DNA from: a virus
DNA length: 64,000 nt
Virus record (IMG/VR): IMGVR_UViG_3300021368_000005
Location: 1-64,000 of that record
Direction: 5' to 3' (one strand)
Shown: positions 27,917-60,990 of the stretch, in pieces
Numbering within the stretch: the stretch's first letter is position 1
Layout of the letters: every line of letters starts with the position of its first letter
The notes under the pieces: generated by a model
Told to the model about the DNA's origin: nothing
The model's input: only the letters and a program-made list of their open reading frames with translations
The model's database searches: none
Made by a program: the position numbers and the translations under genes

Positions 27917-28978
27917 TTACCTCTCTACTGTAAACGTTAAATCTTTATCTGAAAAATATTCTATAACCCCATTTCTTTCGGTCTTTACTTCAATATAATA
28001 ATCTCTTTCTGTTTCAAAGTTTGTAAGATTAAGCTTAAAGTAATTACCATTAGAATCACAAGATACTTTAGTGTAATCACTAAATGGAAGAATTACTTCA
28101 TCTGTTTGTATATCTTTAATTTGATAATACGTTGTTGATGGTAAAAAATACACATCTGTATATGCATGTTGATTTGAATAAGTTTTAAGAGGATATTTTT
28201 CTCTTCCAAAAACTCTAATCTGTGGTGTACTTCCTTTTTTGTATTTTGTTTTTAATCTCTTAAATGTTACATGAATATCATCAGATGTAAGTTCTGTTAG
28301 CGAACCAGTAGAAAAAGATGAATCATCCCAACCTATTCTTATTTTTGGTTGGTAAATTGTATTTGTCTCTTTGGAGAAAAATTTTAGTTGGCCATAGTCA
28401 TTTACATCATTCTCCAATGATGATGTATATTTTAGAATAAATCCTTCGTTTGGTAAATCACCACTAATCCAAGTATTAAGTGTTCCTAGAACATCCATTT
28501 CTATATCAGATGTCTCATATGAAAATGATTGTGATGAGAAAGAACCAGTAAACCAAATACCACCCTTACCATTAAATGAACCAGTTGTATCAGATGAGTG
28601 ATTTTCTTGACTCATCCAGTCTTGTCCTGTTCTACAACTATTCCATGTTACACCATCTGTTGATATTTCATCAAATCTAGTTCCTATACCCATATCCCAC
28701 GATTGAGATACTGCATAAGCATAAATTGTATAATCTGTTGGTATTTCACTTGATTCACATTCTCTAAGAATAAGTTCTGCAGAACTTGCAGTTATTTCTC
28801 CACTTGCTATTGATTGAGATATTGCATTAGTATCAAACTTAATTAAAGAATGAGATATATCTTTGAGATTACCATAGTATGTTTTTGATATCTCAAGTAT
28901 CTCATCTCTACCTGTATTTTGAGATGGTTGTTGTAAGTAAATGGTTGCATCTTTTGATGCTGTTACGAAGTAATACAT
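27917..28978 (-). CDS. Virion protein with DNRLRE-like N-terminal domain
   Basis: 353 residues. The opening (SKDATIYLQQPSQNTG, then LIKFD, then SSAELILRE) has the order of conserved features of DNRLRE-type beta-sandwich domains found in bacterial surface and carbohydrate-binding proteins, followed by beta-rich C-terminal segments. The ATG at 28978 shares its last base with the stop of the gp6-like gene, so translation is coupled to baseplate assembly genes. Likely a baseplate-attached appendage. Confidence 0.75.
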   Translation of the reverse strand: MYYFVTASKDATIYLQQPSQNTGRDEILEISKTYYGNLKDISHSLIKFDTNAISQSIASGEITASSAELILRECESSEIPTDYTIYAYAVSQSWDMGIGTRFDEISTDGVTWNSCRTGQDWMSQENHSSDTTGSFNGKGGIWFTGSFSSQSFSYETSDIEMDVLGTLNTWISGDLPNEGFILKYTSSLENDVNDYGQLKFFSKETNTIYQPKIRIGWDDSSFSTGSLTELTSDDIHVTFKRLKTKYKKGSTPQIRVFGREKYPLKTYSNQHAYTDVYFLPSTTYYQIKDIQTDEVILPFSDYTKVSCDSNGNYFKLNLTNFETERDYYIEVKTERNGVIEYFSDKDLTFTVER

Positions 28979-31014
28979 TAGATAACCCTCCCTTTTATAT
29001 CTTTACCAGGATACTTTAACTCAAATACCGATGGGTCTAAAGATGGATAAACCATCTTACCTTTAGTTGCATTACTAATATTGTATTTGTGTTTAGAGTA
29101 AACTCCTCCACATTTATTAACTATTTCACACTTTGGTACAGATAACACACCCTCTACTCCTGCAATTATTAATTCCAATTCAGAAATATTAATTGGTTGA
29201 TTAAATGCCCAATCATCAATATTAAAATATTTTTCTATTTCGGTTATACATTTTAACATTACTTCTCTTTTATTATAAGAGTTGTAAACCATTATCTCAA
29301 AGTCAACACCAATATTTATTACAAATCCATCTAATAAATTTATACCATCTGTTAATAATCTAAACTCTGATAAATATGTTTTAACATTTTCTTTAACTGC
29401 TTTATTTAATGAAGTTAAGTTTTTACTTGAGTTATAACCAAGTAAATATAAGTTTATAGCAAAAGGATTGTTTTTTTCTTCTTGACCAGATTTTCCAACT
29501 AAGAATCTCTGTAATTCTGTTTTTATCTCTTGTTCTGTTTTTTTATCTCCACTATTTAGTTTTTGAACCAATCCAGCAAATTCTTCAAGAGAATCAGGAT
29601 TATTCAATATAGAACTAGGTGAATTATTATCTAACTCTCCATCTGGTGCACAATAAGCTTTTGCAACTCCACCAAACTTAGGAGGAAGTGCCAATGCTCT
29701 TACTTGATAATCTTTTCTTGTTACTGCTCTATTTTGTGAACCAAAGTGTGCAAGTGCATTTTCTCTAATCTCATCAATAGTTTCTGCACCTCTACCACCA
29801 CTAGCAGGAATTTCATTTTCAGCTGCTATCGAGTTTTTAACAGTTCCATACATTTGTAGTTCATCATCATCAAACAAACTTAAATCTTCATCAAACTCCA
29901 TCTTAGTAATTCTTTTTATAGATGCTTTTGATACATTTGATTCAACACCACCACCAACTAAATATCTAATAGATAATGTGGTATTTGATGGAGCCTGTCC
30001 ATATGATTTAGATTTCAAGAAATTTGCTGGGTCAAATGATGCTCCTAACCTATCAATAGAATTATTTAATCCTAATCCTACATTCTTAAAGTTTGGTAAA
30101 AAAGTTTCATCAGATGAAGTTGAGTTACCCGCTCCAAATACAATACTTGTTGTATTATTTGGGTTTACTTGTCTAACAAATCTACGAGATGTTTTAGTTA
30201 CTCTTAATATACTAGGTACTGAATCCTTAAACTGTGCCAAATCTCCATCAAATTGAGATGTGTTTGGATAATCAGTATAAACCATTTCTTGAGCAAGGTA
30301 AGGAACTTCGTACCATTTATTTCCATTTGAATCTCTCACATCATATATTTGGATAATATTAGTATCAGCCAAATCTATTTTATCAAATTGTTTAGGTGAA
30401 CCAAATTCTATATTAACCTCTTTTTCTTCTGCTGAAATTGCATTAACATACTTTCTTATTAAGTAAAAAGTTGGTTCTTGTAATTCATTTCTTTCGTAAA
30501 CAGAAACTTCTCTTTCAAACTCATCATTAAAATCAACAAGTTCTGTTGTTCTAAATATAACTCCTGTGTCGGATGTAAGTTCCATTCCTTCTTTTATTCT
30601 AAGTAAATAACCCTCATCCATTTCGAACCTATTATCACCTTCGTATAAGTTTCCACTTGCTCTCCTTTTACTTGGAGTAAGTTGGTAAACAGCAACTTTT
30701 GTTAATGCAGGTGAAGTAACTTTTGGTTTATATCCTAAAAAGTTTGCAAGAGCAACAACATTATCTTTATCCTCCGCAGTATGTATCATTGATTCTTTTA
30801 ATGTATCATCGATATAATATCCAAGAACATCTCCTAAATAAGATGCCATTTCTATGAACATCATACCTGGTGATGATTCATTAAAATCAGAATATGTTGT
30901 AGGGAAATAAGTTTTAGCGTATTCAATTAAGTTATTTCTGAACTCACCAAAATCTTTATTAAGATACTGAATGTTCTTTCCTAAGTTTTTTCTATTTGTA
31001 CTGTTTAATGCCAT
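28978..31014 (-). CDS. Baseplate wedge subunit, T4 gp6-like
   Basis: 678 residues. The N terminus (FPTTYSDFNESSPGMMFIEM, then SYLGDVLGYYIDDTLKES) is the pattern I know from gp6 of T4-like phages, and the middle part contains the GAETIDEIRENALAHFGSQN region typical of baseplate J/gp6 proteins. In T4, gp6 dimers join neighbouring wedges into the baseplate ring. Length is close to T4 gp6. It is followed upstream by the gp25-like gene, as in other T4-like genomes. Confidence 0.92.
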   Translation of the reverse strand: MALNSTNRKNLGKNIQYLNKDFGEFRNNLIEYAKTYFPTTYSDFNESSPGMMFIEMASYLGDVLGYYIDDTLKESMIHTAEDKDNVVALANFLGYKPKVTSPALTKVAVYQLTPSKRRASGNLYEGDNRFEMDEGYLLRIKEGMELTSDTGVIFRTTELVDFNDEFEREVSVYERNELQEPTFYLIRKYVNAISAEEKEVNIEFGSPKQFDKIDLADTNIIQIYDVRDSNGNKWYEVPYLAQEMVYTDYPNTSQFDGDLAQFKDSVPSILRVTKTSRRFVRQVNPNNTTSIVFGAGNSTSSDETFLPNFKNVGLGLNNSIDRLGASFDPANFLKSKSYGQAPSNTTLSIRYLVGGGVESNVSKASIKRITKMEFDEDLSLFDDDELQMYGTVKNSIAAENEIPASGGRGAETIDEIRENALAHFGSQNRAVTRKDYQVRALALPPKFGGVAKAYCAPDGELDNNSPSSILNNPDSLEEFAGLVQKLNSGDKKTEQEIKTELQRFLVGKSGQEEKNNPFAINLYLLGYNSSKNLTSLNKAVKENVKTYLSEFRLLTDGINLLDGFVINIGVDFEIMVYNSYNKREVMLKCITEIEKYFNIDDWAFNQPINISELELIIAGVEGVLSVPKCEIVNKCGGVYSKHKYNISNATKGKMVYPSLDPSVFELKYPGKDIKGRVI

Positions 31015-35877: not shown

Positions 35878-37584
35878 TTATAGTATCTTTTTTTTGATAA
35901 TGTAGTTGTGAATCACAAGAGTATCCATTTCACAATTTAAGAAGGTTTCTATTGCCGATTTGGGGTCTAATACCATTGTCTGGTCTTTTAGATTAAATGA
36001 AGTATTAATTACAATAGGATATCCATTATCAGTATTCAACTGTGTAAGTAACTTATATAATCGATTATGTTGTTTGTGTTGTAGTGATTGAATTCTAGCA
36101 GAACCATCTATGTGGGTTATAGCAGGAAGTTTATCTCTATACTCTTCTTTAACTTTAACAACTTGATTCATATATGGAACATCTTTAATATAATCAAAAT
36201 ATCTAGATTGTTCTTCTGATTTTACTATTGGAGCGAAAGGTCTAAACCCTTCTCTCTTTTTAATAATACTGTTCAGTTTATCTTTCATCTGAGGGTCACA
36301 TGGATTGGCAAGAATAGAACGATTGCCTAATGCTCTTGCACCAAATTCCATTTTACCTTCAAACCACCCCACTACATTTCCATTTGTAATTTCTTTAGAA
36401 ATGATAGGTATGATTTCAGAATGTGTTTTCTTCTCGAACCAAACATCAACATTCATTTCTTCTAATACATCTTCAACATCCGAGTTTAAGTAATGAGGTC
36501 CTAGGTATGGAGTTTTGTTGTCAGGTCTATGCTCTCCATTTCTAACATGATATAGATGTAACGCGGCTCCAATTGCAGAACCTGCATCAGATGGAGCTGG
36601 TGGAATCCAAATATTTCTAAAGTTTGATTTTTCTAACACTTTTCCATTAGCAGTTCCATTATAGGCACACCCACCACTTAAACATAAGTTATGAGATGAA
36701 CGAAGTGCATATAATCTATCCACCAATCTAAAGAATAAAAATTCATATTCTTGTTGTAAAGTTGCTGCCAAATCTTTATGTGGTTGATTTAGGTTATCTT
36801 CGGGTAATCTGTTAGGTATCCCAAATAATTTTCCTAGTTTTTCATTAAACATATGAGTATCCGACCAATCATATGTAAAATAATCCATATTAAATTCAAA
36901 CCCACCATCATCAGTAAGAGTATATAGTTTTTTGAATTTATGAGTAAACTTTTTTGGATTACCATAAGGAGCCAATCCCATAACTTTATATTCACCCTCG
37001 TTTGGTTTGAATCCTAAGAATGCAGTTATTGCTGAGTACAACATACCAAGTGAATGTGGGAATTTTATATGTTGTACTTTTGTGATTTTATTTGCCTCAC
37101 CATAATACATACAAGTAGTTTCCCACTCACCCACTCCATCTACTGTTAGTATGGATGCTTTATCAAAAGGTGATGTATAGAATGCATAAGCAGCATGAGA
37201 AAGATGGTGGTCTCCATAAAATATTTCAATATCTTTATGAGTTATATCTACAATTTGATTTTCAAATCTAGTGTACTTTAGTTTATTTCTTTTAACTATA
37301 TTAGTACGATTAAAAAATTGAGATATGGGCCCTCTCTTAACTGATTGTGTTATTCTATCTATTTTGGATTCAGGATTATCATAAAAAGCAACACCTTCAA
37401 TATTAATTCCCTTAATATTAAATTCTTTATACAACCAATTGATTGTATTAATAGGAAAAGATGAATCGTGTTTTACACCTGTGAATCGTTCTTCCTCACA
37501 AGCACCTAAAACCTTTCCATCTTTAATTAAAGCTGCGGCACTATCATGATACCCACATGATACTCCTAAAATATAACCTTGCAT
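35878..37584 (-). CDS. Carbamoyltransferase, NodU/CmcH family
   Basis: 568 residues, full length for the family. The N-terminal Kae1/TsaD-like part has GVSCGYHDSAAALI, CEEERFTGVKHDSSFP, the metal site GDHHLSHAAYAFY (~122-134) and VDGVGEWETT. The C-terminal part has LSGGCAYNGTANGK, FGARALGNRSILA and REGFRPFAPIV. The enzymes transfer a carbamoyl group from carbamoyl phosphate, via carbamoyl-AMP, to a hydroxyl on a sugar, antibiotic or nodulation factor. A phage copy could modify a nucleotide, a glycan or a virion part. It follows the late sigma gene by 5 nt. Confidence 0.93.
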   Translation of the reverse strand: MQGYILGVSCGYHDSAAALIKDGKVLGACEEERFTGVKHDSSFPINTINWLYKEFNIKGINIEGVAFYDNPESKIDRITQSVKRGPISQFFNRTNIVKRNKLKYTRFENQIVDITHKDIEIFYGDHHLSHAAYAFYTSPFDKASILTVDGVGEWETTCMYYGEANKITKVQHIKFPHSLGMLYSAITAFLGFKPNEGEYKVMGLAPYGNPKKFTHKFKKLYTLTDDGGFEFNMDYFTYDWSDTHMFNEKLGKLFGIPNRLPEDNLNQPHKDLAATLQQEYEFLFFRLVDRLYALRSSHNLCLSGGCAYNGTANGKVLEKSNFRNIWIPPAPSDAGSAIGAALHLYHVRNGEHRPDNKTPYLGPHYLNSDVEDVLEEMNVDVWFEKKTHSEIIPIISKEITNGNVVGWFEGKMEFGARALGNRSILANPCDPQMKDKLNSIIKKREGFRPFAPIVKSEEQSRYFDYIKDVPYMNQVVKVKEEYRDKLPAITHIDGSARIQSLQHKQHNRLYKLLTQLNTDNGYPIVINTSFNLKDQTMVLDPKSAIETFLNCEMDTLVIHNYIIKKKIL

Positions 37585-39816: not shown

Positions 39817-40434
39817 TTATAAGATTTCAGCTCCACTTTTTAATAGTGGTTCTGCTTTCTTGTATTTCATAAATTGAGTAGTTCCATCGGATAATTTTAC
39901 CATTACCCTTTCGTTTCTACCATACTTTTTTTCTCTAATAATTGTTTGAGTGTATCTCCTATCTGAATCAGTTATTAACTTCCCATCCAAGTGGTCAATC
40001 TCATGTTGAGCACAAACACACTCTAACAATCCCTCATCATTAAAAAACTCATCTGAGTTTTCCCATGTACCTGTTTCTGAATCAGGTGAGAATATAACTG
40101 TTCCTAAATTATCACACTCTAAAGTAAATGATTTATGTCTTACGGTTTTAACTGGTTTTCTCATTGTTTTATCTAAGGATAAACATTGTTCTACATAAGC
40201 AACTGTATCCTTTGATACCTCAGTTACTTTTGGGTTTATCAATACTAAAGGTTCTTTAACATTGATTACACAAGCACGAACATCTAATCCTATTTGATTG
40301 GCGGATAAACCTATACCGCCATGTCTTTTAAGTTCTTGTAGAAGAGTTGTTGATACTTCATCAATCATCTCTTGAGTCATTGGTTTTGGAGGTATAACAC
40401 CTCTTAACTTATTTGGGTCTTTAATTAATTTCAT
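39817..40434 (-). CDS. def: Peptide deformylase
   Basis: 205 residues with all three family motifs: GIGLSANQ (40-47; usually GxGLAAxQ), EQCLS with zinc ligand Cys84, and QHEIDHLDG with His144, Glu145 and His148. Removes the formyl group from nascent proteins. Phage deformylases in marine T4-like phages are thought to favour synthesis of certain proteins in infection. A ~15-residue insertion lies before the HEIDH motif (SPDSETGTWENSDEFF). The start overlaps the stop of the upstream gene by 4 nt. Confidence 0.94.
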   Translation of the reverse strand: MKLIKDPNKLRGVIPPKPMTQEMIDEVSTTLLQELKRHGGIGLSANQIGLDVRACVINVKEPLVLINPKVTEVSKDTVAYVEQCLSLDKTMRKPVKTVRHKSFTLECDNLGTVIFSPDSETGTWENSDEFFNDEGLLECVCAQHEIDHLDGKLITDSDRRYTQTIIREKKYGRNERVMVKLSDGTTQFMKYKKAEPLLKSGAEIL

Positions 40435-41145: not shown

Positions 41146-42108
41146 TTATTTCCAAGAAAAATTTGCACCCATGTGTCCGAATGATGCCGAATCACCGAAT
41201 ATGGGTTTTTTAAGTTCTAAGAAATCTATAATTCCTTTTGGTGATAAATCATATCCTTTAATAAATTCATGTTCTCCATCAACCATGGCAGTTGCTTGAA
41301 GAGGTTGGTCATATCCAATTGCATATGCAAGTTGTACGAATACTTCCTTTGCTCCTCTCTCTCGAAGAATATCTACTGCGATTCTTCTTGCCATGTAAGC
41401 GGCACTTCTATCAACTTTAGTTGCATCCTTACCACTAAATGCTCCACCACCAAGTGGAACTCTTGGGCCATAATTATCTACTGCTAATTTTCTACCAGTC
41501 AACCCAGCATCGGCGGTGAACCCACCAATGTTCCAATCACCTGCAGGATTACAATGTAATGATTCAATATGATACTGAGGAAAATCCTCAAAGTATTCCA
41601 TTACTAATTTTTCTAATTCATCTGCTGGTGCACAACAGAATGATGCAACAACTCTTAATGAATTACCATTCATCGTAACTTGAGTCTTACCATCAGTTGG
41701 ATATTTGTTAAAAATAGATTTATTAAGTTCTCTTGATAAATAATATTCCTGTGGAAGATATTCTTGATTATCATCACAAGCATAACCAATCATAATTCCT
41801 TGGTCACCTGCTCCACCAGTATCAACTCCATTAGCAATCTCTGGTGATTGTGTATTGATGTTGGTTATAACTTTTAGTGAATCATCAGTTGTAATATCTT
41901 TTACTACTGATTCTATTTCTTCATCTGTAATTTTATACTCCGAGGTAACCTCACCTGTTACATATACTAACCCATTGCCTCCACAAGTTTCTATTGCTAC
42001 TCGTGAATTTGGGTCATGTGTTAAGTGAATATCTAATAATGTGTCTGAAATTCTATCACACATTTTATCTGGATGCATCGGAGATACACATTCTGCTGTT
42101 CTAATCAT
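41146..42108 (-). CDS. metK: S-adenosylmethionine synthetase (short form)
   Basis: 320 residues against about 380-400 for bacterial enzymes. Key motifs are present: HPDK (12-15), GGAGDQGIMIGYA, GGGAFSGKDATKVDRSAAY and the C-terminal end SFGHMGANFSWK. The missing length seems to lie in internal loops, since both ends are present. Makes SAM from methionine and ATP. Its presence fits the several SAM users in this window (two methyltransferases, a SET protein, a radical SAM enzyme). Start overlaps the preceding 36-residue gene (ATGA). Confidence 0.93.
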   Translation of the reverse strand: MIRTAECVSPMHPDKMCDRISDTLLDIHLTHDPNSRVAIETCGGNGLVYVTGEVTSEYKITDEEIESVVKDITTDDSLKVITNINTQSPEIANGVDTGGAGDQGIMIGYACDDNQEYLPQEYYLSRELNKSIFNKYPTDGKTQVTMNGNSLRVVASFCCAPADELEKLVMEYFEDFPQYHIESLHCNPAGDWNIGGFTADAGLTGRKLAVDNYGPRVPLGGGAFSGKDATKVDRSAAYMARRIAVDILRERGAKEVFVQLAYAIGYDQPLQATAMVDGEHEFIKGYDLSPKGIIDFLELKKPIFGDSASFGHMGANFSWK

Positions 42109-42215
42109 TTATTTAATTTTTGTTGTAGTTTTTGAATTTTTAACTTTATTTCTTGTGTTTGTGGTTTCACAAGTTTTAACTTTACTATTTCTTCTATTAC
42201 CTTTTCGTTATCCAT
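42105..42215 (-). CDS. Small helical peptide (36 residues)
   Basis: Frame from ATG 42215 (MDNEKVIEEIVKLKLVKP) to TGA 42107-42105. Overlaps the metK start by 4 nt and the upstream 57-residue gene by 8 nt. This tight coupling and the heptad pattern (IKLKIQKLQQKLNK) favour a real gene. It may pair with the coiled-coil peptide upstream. Confidence 0.55.
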   Translation of the reverse strand: MDNEKVIEEIVKLKLVKPQTQEIKLKIQKLQQKLNK

Positions 42216-42381
42216 TTTTCTTCATTTGATTTAATAAGTCTTTATACTTTTTATTCCACTTAGAAATTTCTTCTTTATATCCTTGTTTTATAGACTCTTG
42301 TTTTTCTAATTTTTGTCTAAGGTCTTTATTTTCTTTTTCTAAGTTTTCTATCTTAAGTTGGTATAATCTTGTATGTTCCAT
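42208..42381 (-). CDS. Small coiled-coil protein (57 residues)
   Basis: Frame from ATG 42381 (MEHTRLYQLKIENLEKENKD) to TAA 42210-42208. Nearly all Glu, Lys, Leu and Gln in heptads, so probably a coiled coil. It lies one nt past the stop of thymidylate synthase and overlaps the next small gene. Function unknown. Confidence 0.6.
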   Translation of the reverse strand: MEHTRLYQLKIENLEKENKDLRQKLEKQESIKQGYKEEISKWNKKYKDLLNQMKKNG

Positions 42382-42382
42382 A

Positions 42383-43273
42383 TTAATTACTTAAAGGTGC
42401 TTTTATTGTGGGGTGAGATTTATATCCTATGATTTCATAATCAAATTCACCATTTAGAATATCCACATTTGATAATTTTATTGTTGGTAGTTGGTATGAA
42501 CTTCTTAATCTTTGTTCTTCTGCCTGTTCTAAGTGATTCTTATATAAGTGAGTATCACCTAAGTTACCAATCAGCTCACCAGGTTGTAAATTTGTTTCTT
42601 CACATAATAGTAGTAATAACATCCCATAAGATGCGATGTTAAATGGTAACCCCAAGAAAGTATCAACACTTCTCTGATTCCATAATAGAGATAACTTACC
42701 ATCGTTTACATAACATTGAAAAGAATAATGACAAGGTGGTAAAGTCATTTGGTCTAACTTACCAACATCCCATGCAGATATCATCAATCTTCTACTGTGG
42801 GGATTTTCTTTTAAGTTTGTAATAAGTTCTTTTAGTTGGTCAATATGTCCTCCCCAAGTTTTCCAAGCTCTCCAACCTTTTCCATAAACAGGACCAAGTT
42901 CCCCCCATGTTCTTGAAAACAACTCATCATCTTTTATTTTTTGAACAAAATCTTTTTCTGATAGATACTCATCCAAATCCCATGTAGCTGCTCTTTCATA
43001 TGTTTTATAAGCATCACCATTCCAAATATTACATCCATTCTGAACAAGATATCGGATGTTGGTATCTCCTTTGAGAAACCATTTTAGTTCTGTCATGATT
43101 GATTTTATCGCCATCTTTTTTGTTGTAAGAAGTGGAAACCCATCACTCATCTTATGTCTGATTTGTTTTCCGAAAACAGATATTGTACCTGTACCAGTTC
43201 TATCGGTTTTTTCTTTTCCTTCTAATAATATTTCCTGAAGTAATTGTTGGTAGTCTAAATCTAAGTTATTCAT
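42383..43273 (-). CDS. thyA: Thymidylate synthase
   Basis: 296 residues with the classic ThyA motifs: DRTGTGT near the N terminus, WGELGPVYGKGWRAW, catalytic Cys near 181 in LPPCHYSFQCYV, LLWNQRSVDTFLGLPFN and the end GYKSHPTIKAPL. Converts dUMP to dTMP using methylene-THF. With the dCMP deaminase (59218-59676) it gives the phage its own dTMP supply. Overlaps the SET gene by 8 nt. Confidence 0.97.
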   Translation of the reverse strand: MNNLDLDYQQLLQEILLEGKEKTDRTGTGTISVFGKQIRHKMSDGFPLLTTKKMAIKSIMTELKWFLKGDTNIRYLVQNGCNIWNGDAYKTYERAATWDLDEYLSEKDFVQKIKDDELFSRTWGELGPVYGKGWRAWKTWGGHIDQLKELITNLKENPHSRRLMISAWDVGKLDQMTLPPCHYSFQCYVNDGKLSLLWNQRSVDTFLGLPFNIASYGMLLLLLCEETNLQPGELIGNLGDTHLYKNHLEQAEEQRLRSSYQLPTIKLSNVDILNGEFDYEIIGYKSHPTIKAPLSN

Positions 43274-43601
43274 ATTGTGCTGTCATTCCATCATAGGATT
43301 CAAACCTATAATATACTGTTAATTCTTCTCCTGCCTTTATTGGTCTTATAGAGTGTAATGTTCTTTCTTCTGTATTGGTACTGATATAACAATTAGGATT
43401 TTCACTATGATTGATAAATCCACCAAGAGGAGTTCGTACCCATTCTCTTCTTGTGGTAGAAACTGCAAATACATGAGTTTCACCAAATACTTCTCCAGCT
43501 GAGAAATCTCTTTCTGCAGTTAACCCTAAACCCTCAATTGCACTTCCCATTATTGTTAACCCTTCTGGCAATGGTCTATATGTATCTTCGAATTGTTTCA
43601 T
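43266..43601 (-). CDS. SET-domain protein (lysine methyltransferase fold)
   Basis: 111 residues with the SET core: GGFINHSENPNC (60-71; family NHSxxPN) and IKAGEELTVYY (88-98; family GEELxxxY), and an N-terminal strand set (TAERDFSAGEVFGE). SET enzymes transfer methyl from SAM to protein lysines; those of bacteria and phages have few known targets. It lies in one overlapping operon with the helicase, thyA and metK, which would supply SAM. It has no extra domains, so it may be a minimal catalytic unit. Confidence 0.88.
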   Translation of the reverse strand: MKQFEDTYRPLPEGLTIMGSAIEGLGLTAERDFSAGEVFGETHVFAVSTTRREWVRTPLGGFINHSENPNCYISTNTEERTLHSIRPIKAGEELTVYYRFESYDGMTAQYE

Positions 43602-44980
43602 TTTATATTAGCCAAACGTTCTATTTCTTTTTTTACTTTTATGTTCCAAGGCCCCCAAGTGATATTATCAATCAACCACTTTCTGTAATAAGGTGGGATT
43701 GATGCAACTGGTTTACCTTTATATTTTCCAAAGGTCATATAAACCTTTTCTATATCACCATCTTCATTCTTCTTTTCTGCAAGATTAATACCACCTTCTA
43801 AGTGGATTCCTATTTCGTGCATTGGAATACCTGTGATTTGTTTCTTACCTTCACCAAACAATTCCCACTCTTCACCACCAGTATCTTTATAATATAGTTC
43901 TTCTACCTTACCAAACTTTTCTACTGAACCTACAAAATCAACAACTAAACAATTTTCTTTTTCATCGTGGATACGAGTTCCTCTACCAACAAACTGATAC
44001 CACCAAGAGATTGATGCGGTTGGTCTACCTGTAATCAAGCAATCTAATTCAGGATAATCGAATCCAACTGTAAGTACATTAACTTGTACAATAACTCGTA
44101 TCTGTTGGTTTCTAAACTCTTCTATGATTCTCTTTCTATCTGCCTTAGGAGTTCCACCATGTACAACTGCAGCTTGTGGAATCTTTCTTGCAAGTTCTGT
44201 TGCTTGTTCTATCGTTGGTACTGCAACAAGAATAGATTTTCTATCATATACTTCTTCAATCTTCTTTACAATCTTATCACCAATGTTTTGGTTCTCATAA
44301 GAACGAGCAATAGATTCTTGTGTATATTCAGCACCACTTGAATTGTAAACTAAGGCACCAGTATCGAAATCATAAGATTGATATTCTAATGGTGTCCAAT
44401 AACCCAACTTAACAATATCTTGAATCTGAGAAACATGAAGAATGTATTTGAAGAACACTCCATGTTTAGAACGATTTGTTAACATTACCAACTTTGAATA
44501 TGGGCCAGTATCTCCCATGTTGGTTTGTAATTTTAAGGGGGTTGCAGTAAGACCAAGTACATGAGTTGCTTTCATACCATCTACAAACCTTCGAAGTTGA
44601 CCGGATTTGTTTCGTGGATACCTATCGCACTCATCGATTATAATCTTAGTGACCCCCATATCTTTGAATTGATGTGCTATGTTAATTATCGAACCGATAG
44701 TTGCATAAGTAACATCACCCAATTCTTTACTACCCATTGAGGCTGAGTAGATTGATGCCTCTCCACCAAGTGTTATGAACTTATTATAGTTTTGTTCTAA
44801 TAGTTCTTTTGATGGTTGTAGTACAAGAATCTTTTCACCAAGTTCTTTTGCAATTGCAGCGATAACAATCGATTTACCGAAGGCAGTTGGTGCCACGATA
44901 ATTGATGGTTTCATCTTTGGAGTTCGTAAAAACTCAACTCCAATTGCTACTGGTTCTATTTGATTCTTTCTTAGTTTCAA
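43598..44980 (-). CDS. SF2 helicase, UvsW-like, with C-terminal DUF3820-like domain
   Basis: 460 residues. Motif I PTAFGKS (31-37), a DECD box (IIIDECDRY), motif III LTATP, and a C-terminal helicase lobe ending QFVGRGTRIHDEKENCLVVD. In T4, UvsW unwinds R-loops and stalled forks and helps move from origin- to recombination-driven replication. After the helicase core a short domain, FGKYKGKPVASIPPYYRKWL, matches the pattern of DUF3820, whose role is unknown. Start and stop overlap neighbours by 4 nt. Confidence 0.88.
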   Translation of the reverse strand: MKLRKNQIEPVAIGVEFLRTPKMKPSIIVAPTAFGKSIVIAAIAKELGEKILVLQPSKELLEQNYNKFITLGGEASIYSASMGSKELGDVTYATIGSIINIAHQFKDMGVTKIIIDECDRYPRNKSGQLRRFVDGMKATHVLGLTATPLKLQTNMGDTGPYSKLVMLTNRSKHGVFFKYILHVSQIQDIVKLGYWTPLEYQSYDFDTGALVYNSSGAEYTQESIARSYENQNIGDKIVKKIEEVYDRKSILVAVPTIEQATELARKIPQAAVVHGGTPKADRKRIIEEFRNQQIRVIVQVNVLTVGFDYPELDCLITGRPTASISWWYQFVGRGTRIHDEKENCLVVDFVGSVEKFGKVEELYYKDTGGEEWELFGEGKKQITGIPMHEIGIHLEGGINLAEKKNEDGDIEKVYMTFGKYKGKPVASIPPYYRKWLIDNITWGPWNIKVKKEIERLANIK

Positions 44981-45564
44981 AGTCCTAAATCTTTTCTAAT
45001 ATCTTCTTTTACTGTTCTTAAATATTTGGTTCTTTTTTTATGAGAAACAAAAGGAACAGACCAGAATTGTTTTGTTTTGAACCACATAGATAACCTCCAA
45101 CCAAACACGAAGGTAAATACACCCATTACTAGTCTTAGTTTGACTGAGTTAAGATATAGAGTTCTAACAGGTAGTGATGGAGCTCCATGTGTAATGTAAG
45201 TTCTAACTTTTTTATCTTTAAGGAATGGTTTTGGATATGCATATAGTTTTGTAAAGTTTACAAACTTATATGCAAAACCTGGTGTAAATACCTCATCAAA
45301 GAATACTTCCATTCTTGGTGTTAACCTAAACCACCATACTGGTGAAATAAAATAAATATGAGTTGACCAAGTTACCAATTCTTGGTACTTCTTAATCAAA
45401 TCTGTTCTTGGTCTTTGGAAACTATCTCTGTATAAATCAATCACTCGATATGATTGTTTATGTTTCCTCATCTGTCTTGTAGCAGTTTTGTAGATACCAT
45501 TCCAACAGAATGATTTCTTATCAGGATGACCCACTACAATTAAAATCTTTTTTTGTTTACTCAC
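44977..45564 (-). CDS. Flavodoxin-fold NAD(P)H:quinone oxidoreductase-like protein
   Basis: 195 residues. The start ILIVVGHPDKKSFCW is the FMN/FAD-binding opening of NQO/KefF-type reductases, followed by YFISPVWWFRLTPRMEVFFD (~92-111), the second flavin loop, and a GFAYKF motif. Reduces quinones or similar compounds with NAD(P)H. The role in infection is unclear; it may help redox balance or stress defence. Embedded by 4-nt overlaps in the helicase operon. Confidence 0.85.
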   Translation of the reverse strand: MSKQKKILIVVGHPDKKSFCWNGIYKTATRQMRKHKQSYRVIDLYRDSFQRPRTDLIKKYQELVTWSTHIYFISPVWWFRLTPRMEVFFDEVFTPGFAYKFVNFTKLYAYPKPFLKDKKVRTYITHGAPSLPVRTLYLNSVKLRLVMGVFTFVFGWRLSMWFKTKQFWSVPFVSHKKRTKYLRTVKEDIRKDLGL

Positions 45565-46494: not shown

Positions 46495-47394
46495 TTATTT
46501 TATATAAGGTAATATTGATAACTCTTTTGCTTTAGCTTCTACCATAACATCTACATCGTTGCCATATAAGTTAGGTAACTCGTTGATGTAATCTGAATGA
46601 GCTTGTGGTTTTAGTTTCTCATTACTCTCATGTAATGCTTTTGATTCTGAATAGTGAACAATTGGTTTGATATTTTTTGGCCATGTAGAGATTGCCAATT
46701 CAAGTGCCTCTTGTTCTGATAAACCACCTGTGTTGAATTTGTGGTGGTGATAATCGAATACAATAGGGATACCAATTCTTTCGTGTATGTACATCAAATC
46801 TTTTACTGAGTACATAGATGCTTTATCATCATTCTCAACAGTTAACCTACCTTGTACTGATTCTGATAATCTTTCAAAGTTCTTACAGAATCTATCCATA
46901 GCAGATTTCTTATCACCATACACACCATTACAATGAATGTTTAGTTTGTTGTAAGGTGTACGAGATAATCCTAACATATCGAATACTTTACCATGTAATT
47001 CTAAATCAGTAATAGTATTTTGTACAACATTCTCTCTTGGAGATACAAGTACATTGAAAGGACCAGGATGTGCGGTGATACGAATACCATGTTCTTTAGC
47101 GTAATATCCACATGCCTGAAGTACTGTTTCAATTCGTTTGTAATATGGTGAGTTTTCAATGCCATACTCTGAAGCCCATGGAAATATATCAGAAGATAAT
47201 CTAAAACATTTGATATTGTTCTGATTGTTCCATTCTAAGATAGTGAATAAATCTCTAGCGTTTTGAAGAGATAATTCACCAGCATATCCAACACCCTTCT
47301 CTAAAAAGGTTCTCTTAATCATTGAACGATTAGTAGTTACTTTTGGTTTTTGTTTACCCAAAGTCATGTTAATACAAGCGTATCCTAAATTCAT
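46495..47394 (-). CDS. uvsE: UV damage endonuclease (UVDE family)
   Basis: 299 residues, the family's usual size. Opens LGYACINMTLG, then FRLSSDIFPWASEYG, ITAHPGPFNVL, LNIHCNGVYGDK, LTVENDD and VFDYHHHKFN, all metal-ligand motifs of the TIM-barrel UvdE nuclease. Nicks DNA 5' of UV photoproducts to start repair. Useful for a phage in sunlit surface water. It has its own class 1 promoter. Confidence 0.95.
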   Translation of the reverse strand: MNLGYACINMTLGKQKPKVTTNRSMIKRTFLEKGVGYAGELSLQNARDLFTILEWNNQNNIKCFRLSSDIFPWASEYGIENSPYYKRIETVLQACGYYAKEHGIRITAHPGPFNVLVSPRENVVQNTITDLELHGKVFDMLGLSRTPYNKLNIHCNGVYGDKKSAMDRFCKNFERLSESVQGRLTVENDDKASMYSVKDLMYIHERIGIPIVFDYHHHKFNTGGLSEQEALELAISTWPKNIKPIVHYSESKALHESNEKLKPQAHSDYINELPNLYGNDVDVMVEAKAKELSILPYIK

Positions 47395-51003: not shown

Positions 51004-51048
51004 TGACAGTTTGTCAGTTTTATGAATGTATGTAATGACACTTTGTCA
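51004..51048 (-). promoter_or_regulatory. Paired TGACA-N3-TGTCA palindromes upstream of hsp20
   Basis: TGACAGTTTGTCA (51004-51016) and TGACACTTTGTCA (51036-51048) are perfect 5-bp inverted repeats with 3-nt centres, spaced 32 nt centre to centre, about three helical turns. Closer to the gene is a direct repeat of TTGGTACA (minus strand, about 50962-50980). The arrangement looks like a two-site operator or activator array for hsp20. The second site overlaps the stop of the DNA methyltransferase gene. Confidence 0.65.
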
Positions 51049-52299
51049 TTTTTCAAATATCCAAATAGGTTCTCCAAAAGTTTTATCTTGATTCTCTTCT
51101 GAATTTTTTAGAGTTTCTTCTGAGTATTGATTTTGATTATGTTCTGTATTCTTTACTGTTCCTGCTCCTCCACTATTAGGTCTCTTAGCCATTTCCATAC
51201 CAATACAACCTTTGTAAGTTAATCCTTTTGATATTAAGAAATCTCCCATTGGGTTTGTGATTTCTTTCCAATCTTTACCACCACCCTTTCCACTAGTGAA
51301 TACATCAGCAATATTGATTGCCATTTTACCACCCTTTTTCATAGTTGGTATAATTTTTTCTAATGCCTTGTGTAGGAAATATTCATTCCAAGCATCTATT
51401 GATTTGTATCTTACCCAACTTTGAGTTTCATCATCACCATATCTTTCTACGTTAAAGTAAGGAGGTGATGTAAATACTAAATCAAAGTAATCGTTATATT
51501 CTGAATAATCAAAATCTTCTGCTGGTGATTGGTGAAAGTTTGTTTTAGTTGGTGATTCAAAGAAAGTAGTATGTTTTTGATAAAAATCTCTTTGTTGTTC
51601 ATAGATAGGATGGTTCTCTTTACGAGGGTCTAATCCAACATAATGTTCTATGGTTTCACTTGCAAAGGCTCCACTTAATCTATCGCCCCATCCCATTGAG
51701 AAATCTAACATAGTTTTACTACCTAGATATTCTGTAAGAGCCTTTGTAACATTTGGTTTGTGTTGAGATGCGATATACTTTCTCAAACCAATCATTACTC
51801 TCAATTCTTTTTTACCAACTTGATTTAGTTTCAATGAATAAGCCGCTCCCATTAAAGATATCATAAAGTCCCTCGTTCTCCAAGTTCTTGCTGGACCAGG
51901 ATAACCTGATGAACATATACTCCACCTATTCTTCTCTTGAAAAAAATTAGATGAAAGATTACCTAGATTATATCGTTTGAATAATATTTGTTTATCTTCA
52001 TATGTAAGAGGATATTTAGATTCTCTTGATTTTCTTGGAAACCATTCTTCTTCCTTTAACAACTCATTCCACCTAATACCTTTAAGTTTCATATAATCAT
52101 CTCGTGCATCTTCTATACTGTACTTATCAGTTGCATATGGAAGTGGGTACTTCATAAACAAATCCGCCAACATTTCTTTTACTTGGTCTTTGGGATATGA
52201 TTCTTTTAAGGTTTCCCAATCTTCTGGTGATATAGTAGGATACTCTCCATCGTAATTACCTTTTTCATATTTTCCTAATATATCTTCACCTATATTCAT
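51046..52299 (-). CDS. DNA methyltransferase-like protein with TSPPY motif
   Basis: 417 residues. The catalytic-type motif TSPPYFNVERYG (~275-286) is the SPPY form of N4-cytosine or N6-adenine amino-methyltransferases. A SAM-loop-like stretch LDFSMGWGDRLSG (~198-210) and an acidic VGLDPRK follow the usual order for this class. A ~150-residue N-terminal helical part is of unknown role. No restriction nuclease is next to it, so it may be an orphan that protects phage DNA from host restriction. The substrate base is not certain. Confidence 0.8.
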   Translation of the reverse strand: MNIGEDILGKYEKGNYDGEYPTISPEDWETLKESYPKDQVKEMLADLFMKYPLPYATDKYSIEDARDDYMKLKGIRWNELLKEEEWFPRKSRESKYPLTYEDKQILFKRYNLGNLSSNFFQEKNRWSICSSGYPGPARTWRTRDFMISLMGAAYSLKLNQVGKKELRVMIGLRKYIASQHKPNVTKALTEYLGSKTMLDFSMGWGDRLSGAFASETIEHYVGLDPRKENHPIYEQQRDFYQKHTTFFESPTKTNFHQSPAEDFDYSEYNDYFDLVFTSPPYFNVERYGDDETQSWVRYKSIDAWNEYFLHKALEKIIPTMKKGGKMAINIADVFTSGKGGGKDWKEITNPMGDFLISKGLTYKGCIGMEMAKRPNSGGAGTVKNTEHNQNQYSEETLKNSEENQDKTFGEPIWIFEK

Positions 52300-54930: not shown

Positions 54931-55992
54931 TTAAATTAGGGTTGTTTTTTCCTCTATAAATTCATGTAAATTATGAAATGTCTGAGGAGCTGGTAAGAAC
55001 TCATTGGCGTGTTTTATAAAGTCTTTGTGATTTTCGTGAGTTGTATCCCACACATTATGTTTATCAAATTCTTGTGGAGTAAAAGTTCCCCAATTATTTA
55101 TCTTACCATAAAACACTTTTGTTTTCTTCTTGAAGATACTCATCATCAAGTCATAGAATATTTTCATTTCCATGTAGTTATGATTCTGAACAACGAATGA
55201 TGTTTTTACACTATTTAGTGTTCTTATTGTAGAAATAAATTTTAGGTTATCAATTAATTCATTCCATTTACCATTTATTCTTGTTTTATTTTCATAAGTA
55301 TCTTTAGTTCCAGCATCAATACTTATTTCACATGATTTGACAAATCTATGTATGTTTGGCATAGAATCCCACATTTTTTTATTCCAATAAGTTGCGTTGG
55401 TATGTAAGTGAATTCTTTCTAATTTAGGATACTTAGATGTATCAAAGTTTCTTAAATAATCTCTAAACCCAACTGATATAAATGGGTCTCCACTTCCTGT
55501 TATGTATATTACTTTTACTGATGAAGCATAATCATCCTCTATTTCTTGGATGGTTGCTTTAACAGTTTTTATTTTATTACTATCGGCAATAAACATTTCA
55601 ATTCTACAAGAAGGACATGCCAAATTACAACTTCTATCAAAAGAAAATTGTATTGTTCTTGGTGCGAATTCTATATCCTTTTTATGTTTATCTACTTTCT
55701 CTTGAACCTCATCTGGTAAGAATCCTTTTCGATATAAAGGTCTGTGTTCTTTTACTCCCTTTGGTATAGCAAGTAAAAATGGACACTGTTGTTTATCACA
55801 GTATTTATAAGAACCATCTATTATAGAATCTCTTATATCTTTAGCAACATCAGAATTAAAAGATTCTCGTGCACTCATACCCTTTGGAAGATGTTTAGTT
55901 AACCAAGAAGGGCAACATAAAAAACTTCTAAAGTCATGTACTTCAATTCCATCAAATGGAACTGCACAAATAAAATCTTTATATTCACTCAT
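54931..55992 (-). CDS. Radical SAM enzyme
   Basis: 353 residues. The iron-sulfur motif CNLACPSC (CxxxCxxC; Cys122, 126, 129) is followed by a glycine-rich stretch YITGSGDPF and IHLHTNATYW. Two further Cys groups near the N terminus (CC at 26-27; CDKQQC at 65-70) could bind a second cluster or zinc. The order resembles SPASM-type peptide-modifying enzymes with an added N-terminal metal site. Uses SAM to form a radical; the substrate is unknown. The start shares a base with the PhoH stop. Confidence 0.88.
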   Translation of the reverse strand: MSEYKDFICAVPFDGIEVHDFRSFLCCPSWLTKHLPKGMSARESFNSDVAKDIRDSIIDGSYKYCDKQQCPFLLAIPKGVKEHRPLYRKGFLPDEVQEKVDKHKKDIEFAPRTIQFSFDRSCNLACPSCRIEMFIADSNKIKTVKATIQEIEDDYASSVKVIYITGSGDPFISVGFRDYLRNFDTSKYPKLERIHLHTNATYWNKKMWDSMPNIHRFVKSCEISIDAGTKDTYENKTRINGKWNELIDNLKFISTIRTLNSVKTSFVVQNHNYMEMKIFYDLMMSIFKKKTKVFYGKINNWGTFTPQEFDKHNVWDTTHENHKDFIKHANEFLPAPQTFHNLHEFIEEKTTLI

Positions 55993-60211: not shown

Positions 60212-60427
60212 CTATATTAGTTTAACTATTTCAGCATCTTCTATTTCATTACAAAAGATAAATAAGTTTAATCTGTTAGATTTGAATACGATATCACACC
60301 CCAACCACTCCTTTACTGCCTGTGCATTTAGAACTCGTGTTATTGGATATCTAGCTACAATTTGATATGGGGTTTGGTTTATATATTCTATGGGACCACA
60401 TTTATCAGGATACCTACCAGTTCTCAT
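60212..60427 (-). CDS. Unknown small protein (71 residues)
   Basis: Begins [20 protein letters not shown], mixed alpha/beta with VKEWLGCDIVFKSNRLNLFI. Shares a base with the stop of the hydroxylase upstream. Possibly one functional unit with it; no family recognised. Confidence 0.62.
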   Translation of the reverse strand: MRTGRYPDKCGPIEYINQTPYQIVARYPITRVLNAQAVKEWLGCDIVFKSNRLNLFIFCNEIEDAEIVKLI

Positions 60428-60990
60428 TACACAAATTTATTTTCACGAACCCATACAATTAATATCCACTTTTCACCTTTAGTAACAGGTAAACCAGCAT
60501 GTTCTGATTCGGCTATCCCCATTCCATTTTCATAATTTAACCAACATATAGCTTTTCCTAATTCTGGTTTAACTACTTTTTTTAGTTGAGGAAACTCAGT
60601 TGCACCACCTTCAAAATCATCATTTAAGTAAACTAAAAAAGAATGTGTTCTATTTCCAGATTCACCGATTTCAACGTTCTCATCAACACTATCTTTAGAA
60701 AAAAAATCATGATGAATTTTATACTCACCCCCCACATCATATTTTACGATATGAAGTTCTTCTTGATTTTCAATTGGGGTTTGTGTCAAATAAGATACTT
60801 GTTTTTTTATTTCATCTAAATAAGGTGAATCTATATCACCCAACCAACAAGAGTTAGCAACTCTATATCCTTCTATTTCCTCACCAACAGTACCAGCCTC
60901 TTCTAACTTAGTTGATGCAAGTCCAATTAAGAAGTCACACCATTGTTTAGAAAAAAACTTAGGATACTGTACTAATATGTTAGATTCCAT
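60427..60990 (-). CDS. 2OG-Fe(II) oxygenase D, prolyl-4-hydroxylase-like
   Basis: 187 residues with the P4H order: [14 protein letters not shown] (His93 and Asp95 of HxD), [31 protein letters not shown], and [20 protein letters not shown] (His164 and Lys174, the latter expected to bind 2-oxoglutarate). Strongest of the four oxygenase calls. Phage P4H-like enzymes have uncertain targets, perhaps collagen-like or proline-rich virion proteins, both of which occur in this window. Confidence 0.9.

Follow-up and report, generated by a model that had tools for sequence, protein, structure and literature searches.

A very small SET-domain gene traded between marine phages as single-gene cargo, independent of the neighbouring metK

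Small SET proteins of viruses and prokaryotes

A very small viral SET protein is known from Paramecium bursaria chlorella virus 1. This protein, vSET (A612L; PDB 1N3J, 3KMA), is an active enzyme of 119 amino acids. It methylates H3K27 of its host, is carried in the virus particles and is likely to act as a repressor of host transcription (PMC3946773). Further SET lysine methyltransferases from outside the eukaryotes are NUE, LegAS4/RomA, BaSET and Go1-SET, originating from bacteria and archaea. The known bacterial enzymes are mostly secreted effectors acting on eukaryotic histones (PMC10117894), and the substrate of Go1-SET is MC1-alpha, a DNA-binding protein of archaea (PMC3980110).

The phage SET protein described here shares the SAM and tyrosine motifs with vSET and is likewise very small, but its middle region is shorter and it carries a conserved signature, GxTH(V/I) followed by RTPLGGF. 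The hosts differ as well: the virus encoding vSET infects a eukaryotic alga that possesses histones, whereas the host of the phage is a bacterium. The best matches in both sequence and fold come from the MLL/KMT2 group (PF00856; PDB 7W67, 4Z4P), with which the phage protein has the motifs NHS.PNC and GEELT..Y in common. In contrast to this group, it lacks the post-SET zinc site and nearly the whole SET-I insert, and it has no known partner proteins. Among phages, it belongs to the same family as PHROG 28741, with relatives in P-SSM7, P-RSM6 and Kolga EXVC016S. This PHROG lacks a functional name and its member proteins are annotated as hypothetical. The methylation of protein lysines by phages has hardly been explored.

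Gene arrangement around the SET gene

The analysed window is a stretch of 64 kb from a 73.6-kb IMG/VR viral contig. All genes of the region at 41146-44980 lie on the minus strand. Read in the direction of transcription, the gene of an SF2 DNA helicase (43598-44980; 460 amino acids, TTG start, SF2 helicase domains at 58 and 54 bits) overlaps by 4 bp the gene of the SET-domain protein (43266-43601; 111 amino acids), which was assigned by Pfam SET, PHROG 28741, an alignment and an AF2 model. The thyA start lies over the SET stop codon with an overlap of 8 bp; the encoded thymidylate synthase ThyA (42383-43273) has 296 amino acids and a Pfam score of 317.5 bits. A gap of 1 bp separates thyA from an ORF for a coiled-coil-like protein of 57 amino acids (42208-42381, taken from the ORF list). 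This ORF overlaps by 8 bp one of 36 amino acids (about 42105-42215, read directly from the sequence), which in turn overlaps the start of metK by 4 bp. MetK (41146-42108) is a short, phage-type S-adenosylmethionine synthetase of 320 amino acids with the Pfam N, M and C domains. The run of overlapping or nearly touching genes from the helicase through SET, ThyA and two small ORFs to MetK, as originally predicted, was thus exact in its coordinates, with junctions of 4-8 bp overlap or a 1-bp gap. The profile matches that identify SET, MetK, ThyA and the helicase exceed what chance would give.

The run exceeds this region on both sides. Upstream, a flavodoxin-like gene (44977-45564, minus strand) overlaps the helicase gene by 4 bp. 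Beyond metK, after a gap of 53 bp, follow a nucleotidyltransferase (NTase) gene, an ORF of 77 amino acids and a peptide deformylase gene (39817-40434). Homologues of the 57-amino-acid ORF occupy the same position in MetK phages without SET. Such tight packing is usual in phages and indicates joint transcription at most; an overlap of genes within a phage transcript is no evidence that the products of neighbours cooperate.

Conserved residues and predicted fold of the SET protein

The SET protein scores 45.1 bits against the Pfam SET profile PF00856 (cutoff 22.4), and its residues 7-101 match PHROG 28741 (E=2.8e-16). The SAM-binding motifs GLGL (residues 24-27) and NHS (64-66) are present, and the catalytic Tyr98 is found within GEELTVYY. 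In an alignment of 40 viral SET relatives, residues N64, H65, S66, P69, N70, E93 and Y98 are invariant, with the invariance of NHS and NHSENPN partly biased by the search patterns, as some loci were found through the NHS motif. In the same alignment, G24 is conserved in 39 and G26 in all 40 sequences.

The AF2 model of the protein (pLDDT 85, pTM 0.73) is confident over residues 11-100 and disordered at the C-terminal residues 102-111. Searched with Foldseek, it yielded 202 PDB matches at E<=0.001, of which the top 50 are all SET or PR domains, led by MLL1 (E=7e-6) and vSET (E=9e-6) with TM scores of 0.63-0.66. The likeness in fold is moderate, with rmsd values mostly of 3.4-5.7 Å. A profile search against the PDB led to SET lysine methyltransferases, vSET among them, at E=1e-9. 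The SET fold that had been predicted is confirmed by the profile match above the cutoff together with the model at pLDDT 85. In the structure model, the catalytic tyrosine and the SAM pocket, on which that prediction had been staked, are both intact.

At the position of SET-I, only about 12 residues lie between GETH and RTPLGGF, so that nearly all of SET-I is missing. The post-SET region and its cysteines are absent, and the whole protein contains a single cysteine. In known SET enzymes, the SET-I region shapes substrate specificity, and in many members SET-I and post-SET complete the substrate cleft; membership in the SET family does not require them. Their loss does not exclude the phage protein from the family because vSET is equally minimal. 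In a profile alignment, as opposed to a superposition, the lysine-pocket tyrosine of MLL-type enzymes (in the 'IYMF' of KMT2D) is matched by Thr42, whose neighbour His43 is almost invariant. This alignment suggests that the product or the substrate could be unusual. Judged from its sequence, the gene apparently encodes an intact, if very small, lysine methyltransferase.

Occurrence of SET genes in phages and prokaryotes

A SET protein in a bacteriophage had been considered rare, a view that did not hold. A search with the query SET sequence alone confirmed 107 viral stretches as carriers, and an alignment-based search revealed at least 588 IMG/VR stretches encoding relatives of this subfamily. 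Pfam SET was present in six of 28 control records selected by an unrelated gene, and among the proteins listed in the paper on Stenotrophomonas phage Ps15 is one with a SET domain (PMC9025141). Of the cultured phages, P-SSM7, P-RSM6 and Kolga EXVC016S carry the gene, and the protein is annotated as hypothetical throughout. In a fourth, Rhodoferax phage P26218, SET makes up the C-terminal portion of a larger protein (L088:3455-4330), fused to a cupin-like N-terminal half in an ORF annotated as tail-fibre-like. The BFVD database already holds an entry 'SET domain containing protein' from an uncultured Caudovirales. A full-text literature search found no functional work on any phage SET protein, only one passing mention. 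Phage SET genes of this kind are common but unstudied.

Among 84,980 prokaryote genomes, the subfamily is nearly absent, with five distant loci detected in a search for the motif NHSENPNC.

Phages encode further SET-like subfamilies, represented by L338, L339 and L341 (140-150 amino acids), L336 and L337 (157 amino acids) and L343 (142 amino acids). The NHS motif is lacking in the 140-150-amino-acid subfamily (L338, L339), and therefore phage SET-like proteins are not all obviously active. In several contigs, genes of 140-150 amino acids lie approximately 6 kb upstream of a methyltransferase of the type encoded at 51046-52299 in the window, described below.

The SET gene is mobile cargo under purifying selection

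The synonymous divergence of SET (dS 0.12-0.22) is far below that of its neighbouring genes (0.5-1.8). Between the window and its relative L001, 8 of 71 synonymous sites differ in SET, compared to 38-58% in the genes for MetK, ThyA, the helicase, the UvdE endonuclease (46495-47394) and the peptide deformylase. The comparison to L002, a record without MetK, gave 13.5 of 70 synonymous sites for SET and 50-68% for the neighbouring genes. Fisher tests on the exact synonymous site counts yielded p values from 2.5e-5 to 3e-12 for these contrasts. At the DNA level, SET itself is about 96% identical and the sequence flanking it mostly 40-75%, and the transitions at the gene ends are sharp. In the comparison to L006, SET (dS 0.65) and MetK (dS 0.62) diverged alike, and the inheritance of SET therefore looks vertical there. 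The dN/dS ratio of SET is 0.06-0.13 for the pairs with L001 and L002 and 0.06-0.21 over all SET pairs; the former range indicates that the gene has been kept functional. SET is thus a mobile single-gene cargo that is traded horizontally between marine phages.

We found no conserved neighbour of SET: among 163 neighbour clusters from 57 non-redundant SET loci, none had more than four members. The neighbours include genes for DNA polymerases, ligase, helicase, terminase, portal and baseplate proteins as well as metabolic genes.

The junction between the helicase gene and thyA is a hotspot for cargo, with the 3′ end of the helicase gene forming one border of the slot. This slot is empty in ten relatives and filled by glycosyltransferase-like or other genes without assigned function in L090, L096, L097 and L124.

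MetK and possible users of its SAM

All three MetK domains score above the Pfam cutoffs (PF00438, PF02772 and PF02773 with 131, 74 and 43 bits, respectively), with the match to the central domain spanning only about half of the profile. MetK contains the motifs HPDK, GAGDQG and GGGAFSGKD.TKVDRS, which are conserved across 16 viral relatives, and relatives were found in 153 phage records. The short MetK of Streptococcus phages (PHROG 1569) shares 40-42% identity with the window MetK over the full length, although these phages belong to different lineages and their records have no match to the window SET family.

Two further proteins in the window are candidate SAM users. The first (51046-52299, minus strand; 417 amino acids) is a Rossmann-fold, class I methyltransferase-like protein with an SPPY motif. 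It matches a DNA methyltransferase PHROG (E=9e-6), reaches 24.3 bits for Pfam N6_N4_Mtase, just below the cutoff of 26.7, and its AF2 model matches class I methyltransferases. Approximately 200 amino acids of its N-terminal sequence have no assignment, and it has 167 viral relatives. The second is a radical-SAM-like protein (54931-55992, minus strand), a possible SAM user with 28 bits for Pfam Radical_SAM, just below the cutoff of 29.5. A C5-cytosine methylase was not found in the phage's own contig.

In the reading we prefer, MetK, as a separate core gene of this lineage, would supplement the SAM pool for every enzyme that draws on it, perhaps also for the class I methyltransferase at 51046-52299. 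A serious competitor, to which we give somewhat less than even chances, is that MetK chiefly provides SAM for the methylation of nucleic acids or for other uses, through this methyltransferase or the radical-SAM-like protein, or that it stands in for host SAM that runs short in the course of infection. The presence of both proteins in the same window as MetK is in line with this, as is the fact that short MetK proteins are common in phages without a match to the window SET family, such as Streptococcus prophages. However, relatives of the 51046-52299 protein occurred in only two of 26 MetK records, and MetK was found in none of 28 records selected for this methyltransferase. The methyltransferase is not tied to MetK, and therefore no single consumer of the SAM was pinned down. 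As the specific recipient of SAM from MetK, the 51046-52299 protein was rejected, since the two do not co-occur beyond the lineage of the window.

Candidate function and target of the SET protein

Our favoured reading, which we hold to be somewhat better than an even bet, is that SET is a compact enzyme methylating protein lysines with SAM as the donor and that its gene passes as single-gene cargo between marine phages, with MetK as a separate core gene. The SET gene occupies a variable slot between the helicase gene and thyA, within a presumed long transcript of nucleotide-metabolism genes to which metK also belongs. Its product would bind SAM via the GLGL and NHS motifs, the target lysine would enter through the SET channel, and methyl transfer by means of Tyr98 would take place during infection at one or a few lysines, most likely in a host protein and with lower probability in a virion protein. 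SET is probably active, with a host or virion protein as the target. By analogy with vSET and Go1-SET, a protein-lysine substrate from the host is the most likely one.

Bacteria lack histones and have hardly any SET proteins of this type. The large, mobile family of minimal phage SETs might be the bacterial-virus counterpart of vSET and methylate a conserved host protein of the nucleoid, transcription or translation to redirect the host, an extension that we put forward tentatively and regard as less likely than not. The occurrence of a compact SET family in hundreds of marine viral contigs provides a concrete starting point for asking whether methylation is a means by which phages alter bacterial proteins.

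It is rather unlikely that virion or packaging proteins of the phage are methylated instead of host proteins. In several unrelated lineages SET is indeed located among late genes, adjoining terminase- and portal-like genes, in P-RSM6 it adjoins a gp25-like protein and a baseplate wedge subunit, and in Rhodoferax phage P26218 the fusion to an N-terminal domain lies in the tail-fibre-like-annotated ORF. In other lineages, including the window phage, SET resides among replication and nucleotide genes instead (ThyA, helicase, DNA polymerases, ligase), and its spread over different virion types disfavours one fixed structural substrate.

We consider it just as improbable that SET is a scaffold that binds SAM or a substrate without methyltransferase activity, for example as an inhibitor or sensor. 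Its very small size, the lack of most of SET-I and of any post-SET region, the apparent replacement of the pocket tyrosine and the existence of a divergent phage SET-like family without NHS would fit such a role. Against it stand the invariance of the SAM-contact residues and of Tyr98 in the 40 relatives, the low dN/dS and the activity of vSET, an enzyme of similar size (119 amino acids).

Candidate substrates encoded by the phages themselves were rejected. A phage-encoded HU was not detected, with no match to PF00216 in 21 SET records, and a conserved neighbour was lacking among the 163 clusters of the 57 loci. Lysine-rich small proteins close to SET occur only in the lineages L051-L080, on the opposite strand, and are absent in the window phage. 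Two such small, basic proteins encoded opposite SET (L080:7532-7801 and L070:3336-3545) are possible substrates in those marine lineages.

MetK and SET are independent of each other

The original prediction had the SAM synthetase feeding the SET protein as its partner, which was contradicted by the tests of presence and absence, synteny and divergence, and the pairing was rejected. A SAM synthetase was found in three of 63 SET-bearing records (3/30, 0/5 and 0/28 in the three sets, whole records searched), and these three are the window contig and two relatives from one lineage. Conversely, the window SET subfamily, the only one covered by this count, was present in two of 79 MetK loci of viral contigs. 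A whole-record Pfam search detected other SET subfamilies in three more MetK records (G058, G070 and G073), located away from MetK. Because of these cases, a control set of 28 records was added, selected by an unrelated gene and all without MetK. SET occurred in three of 23 other MetK records compared to six of these 28 controls (p=0.49); as most of the records are fragmentary, all MetK and SET counts are lowered, in both groups.

The gene order is consistent with this result. In ten MetK relatives, thyA follows the helicase gene after 2-21 bp, then metK, with the SET slot empty, and in four further ones other genes occupy the slot. In L002-L005 and L008, SET is followed by thyA and MetK is lacking; thyA follows SET in eight loci, all of one lineage. 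The histories of the two genes are not shared either, as the comparison to L001 gave a dS of 0.12 for SET and of 0.63 for MetK. MetK and SET are therefore independent, and MetK is an accidental neighbour of SET. Although both proteins are predicted to be functional and are encoded in one packed run in the window phage and L006, likewise in L001 with an extra gene, it is very improbable that they form one module selected together in which MetK supplies SAM to SET, given that MetK accompanies SET in a single lineage, the gene block exists without SET in at least ten MetK relatives and SET-thyA without MetK in five loci, SET is no commoner with MetK than without, and SET was recently exchanged without MetK.

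Other genes of the window phage

Elsewhere in the window, we noted a gene for a Nol-like carbamoyltransferase (35878-37584) and one for a 2OG-Fe(II) oxygenase (60427-60990). The baseplate wedge protein encoded at 28978-31014 is closest to those of Microcystis phage Mel-JY01 and Flavobacterium phages.
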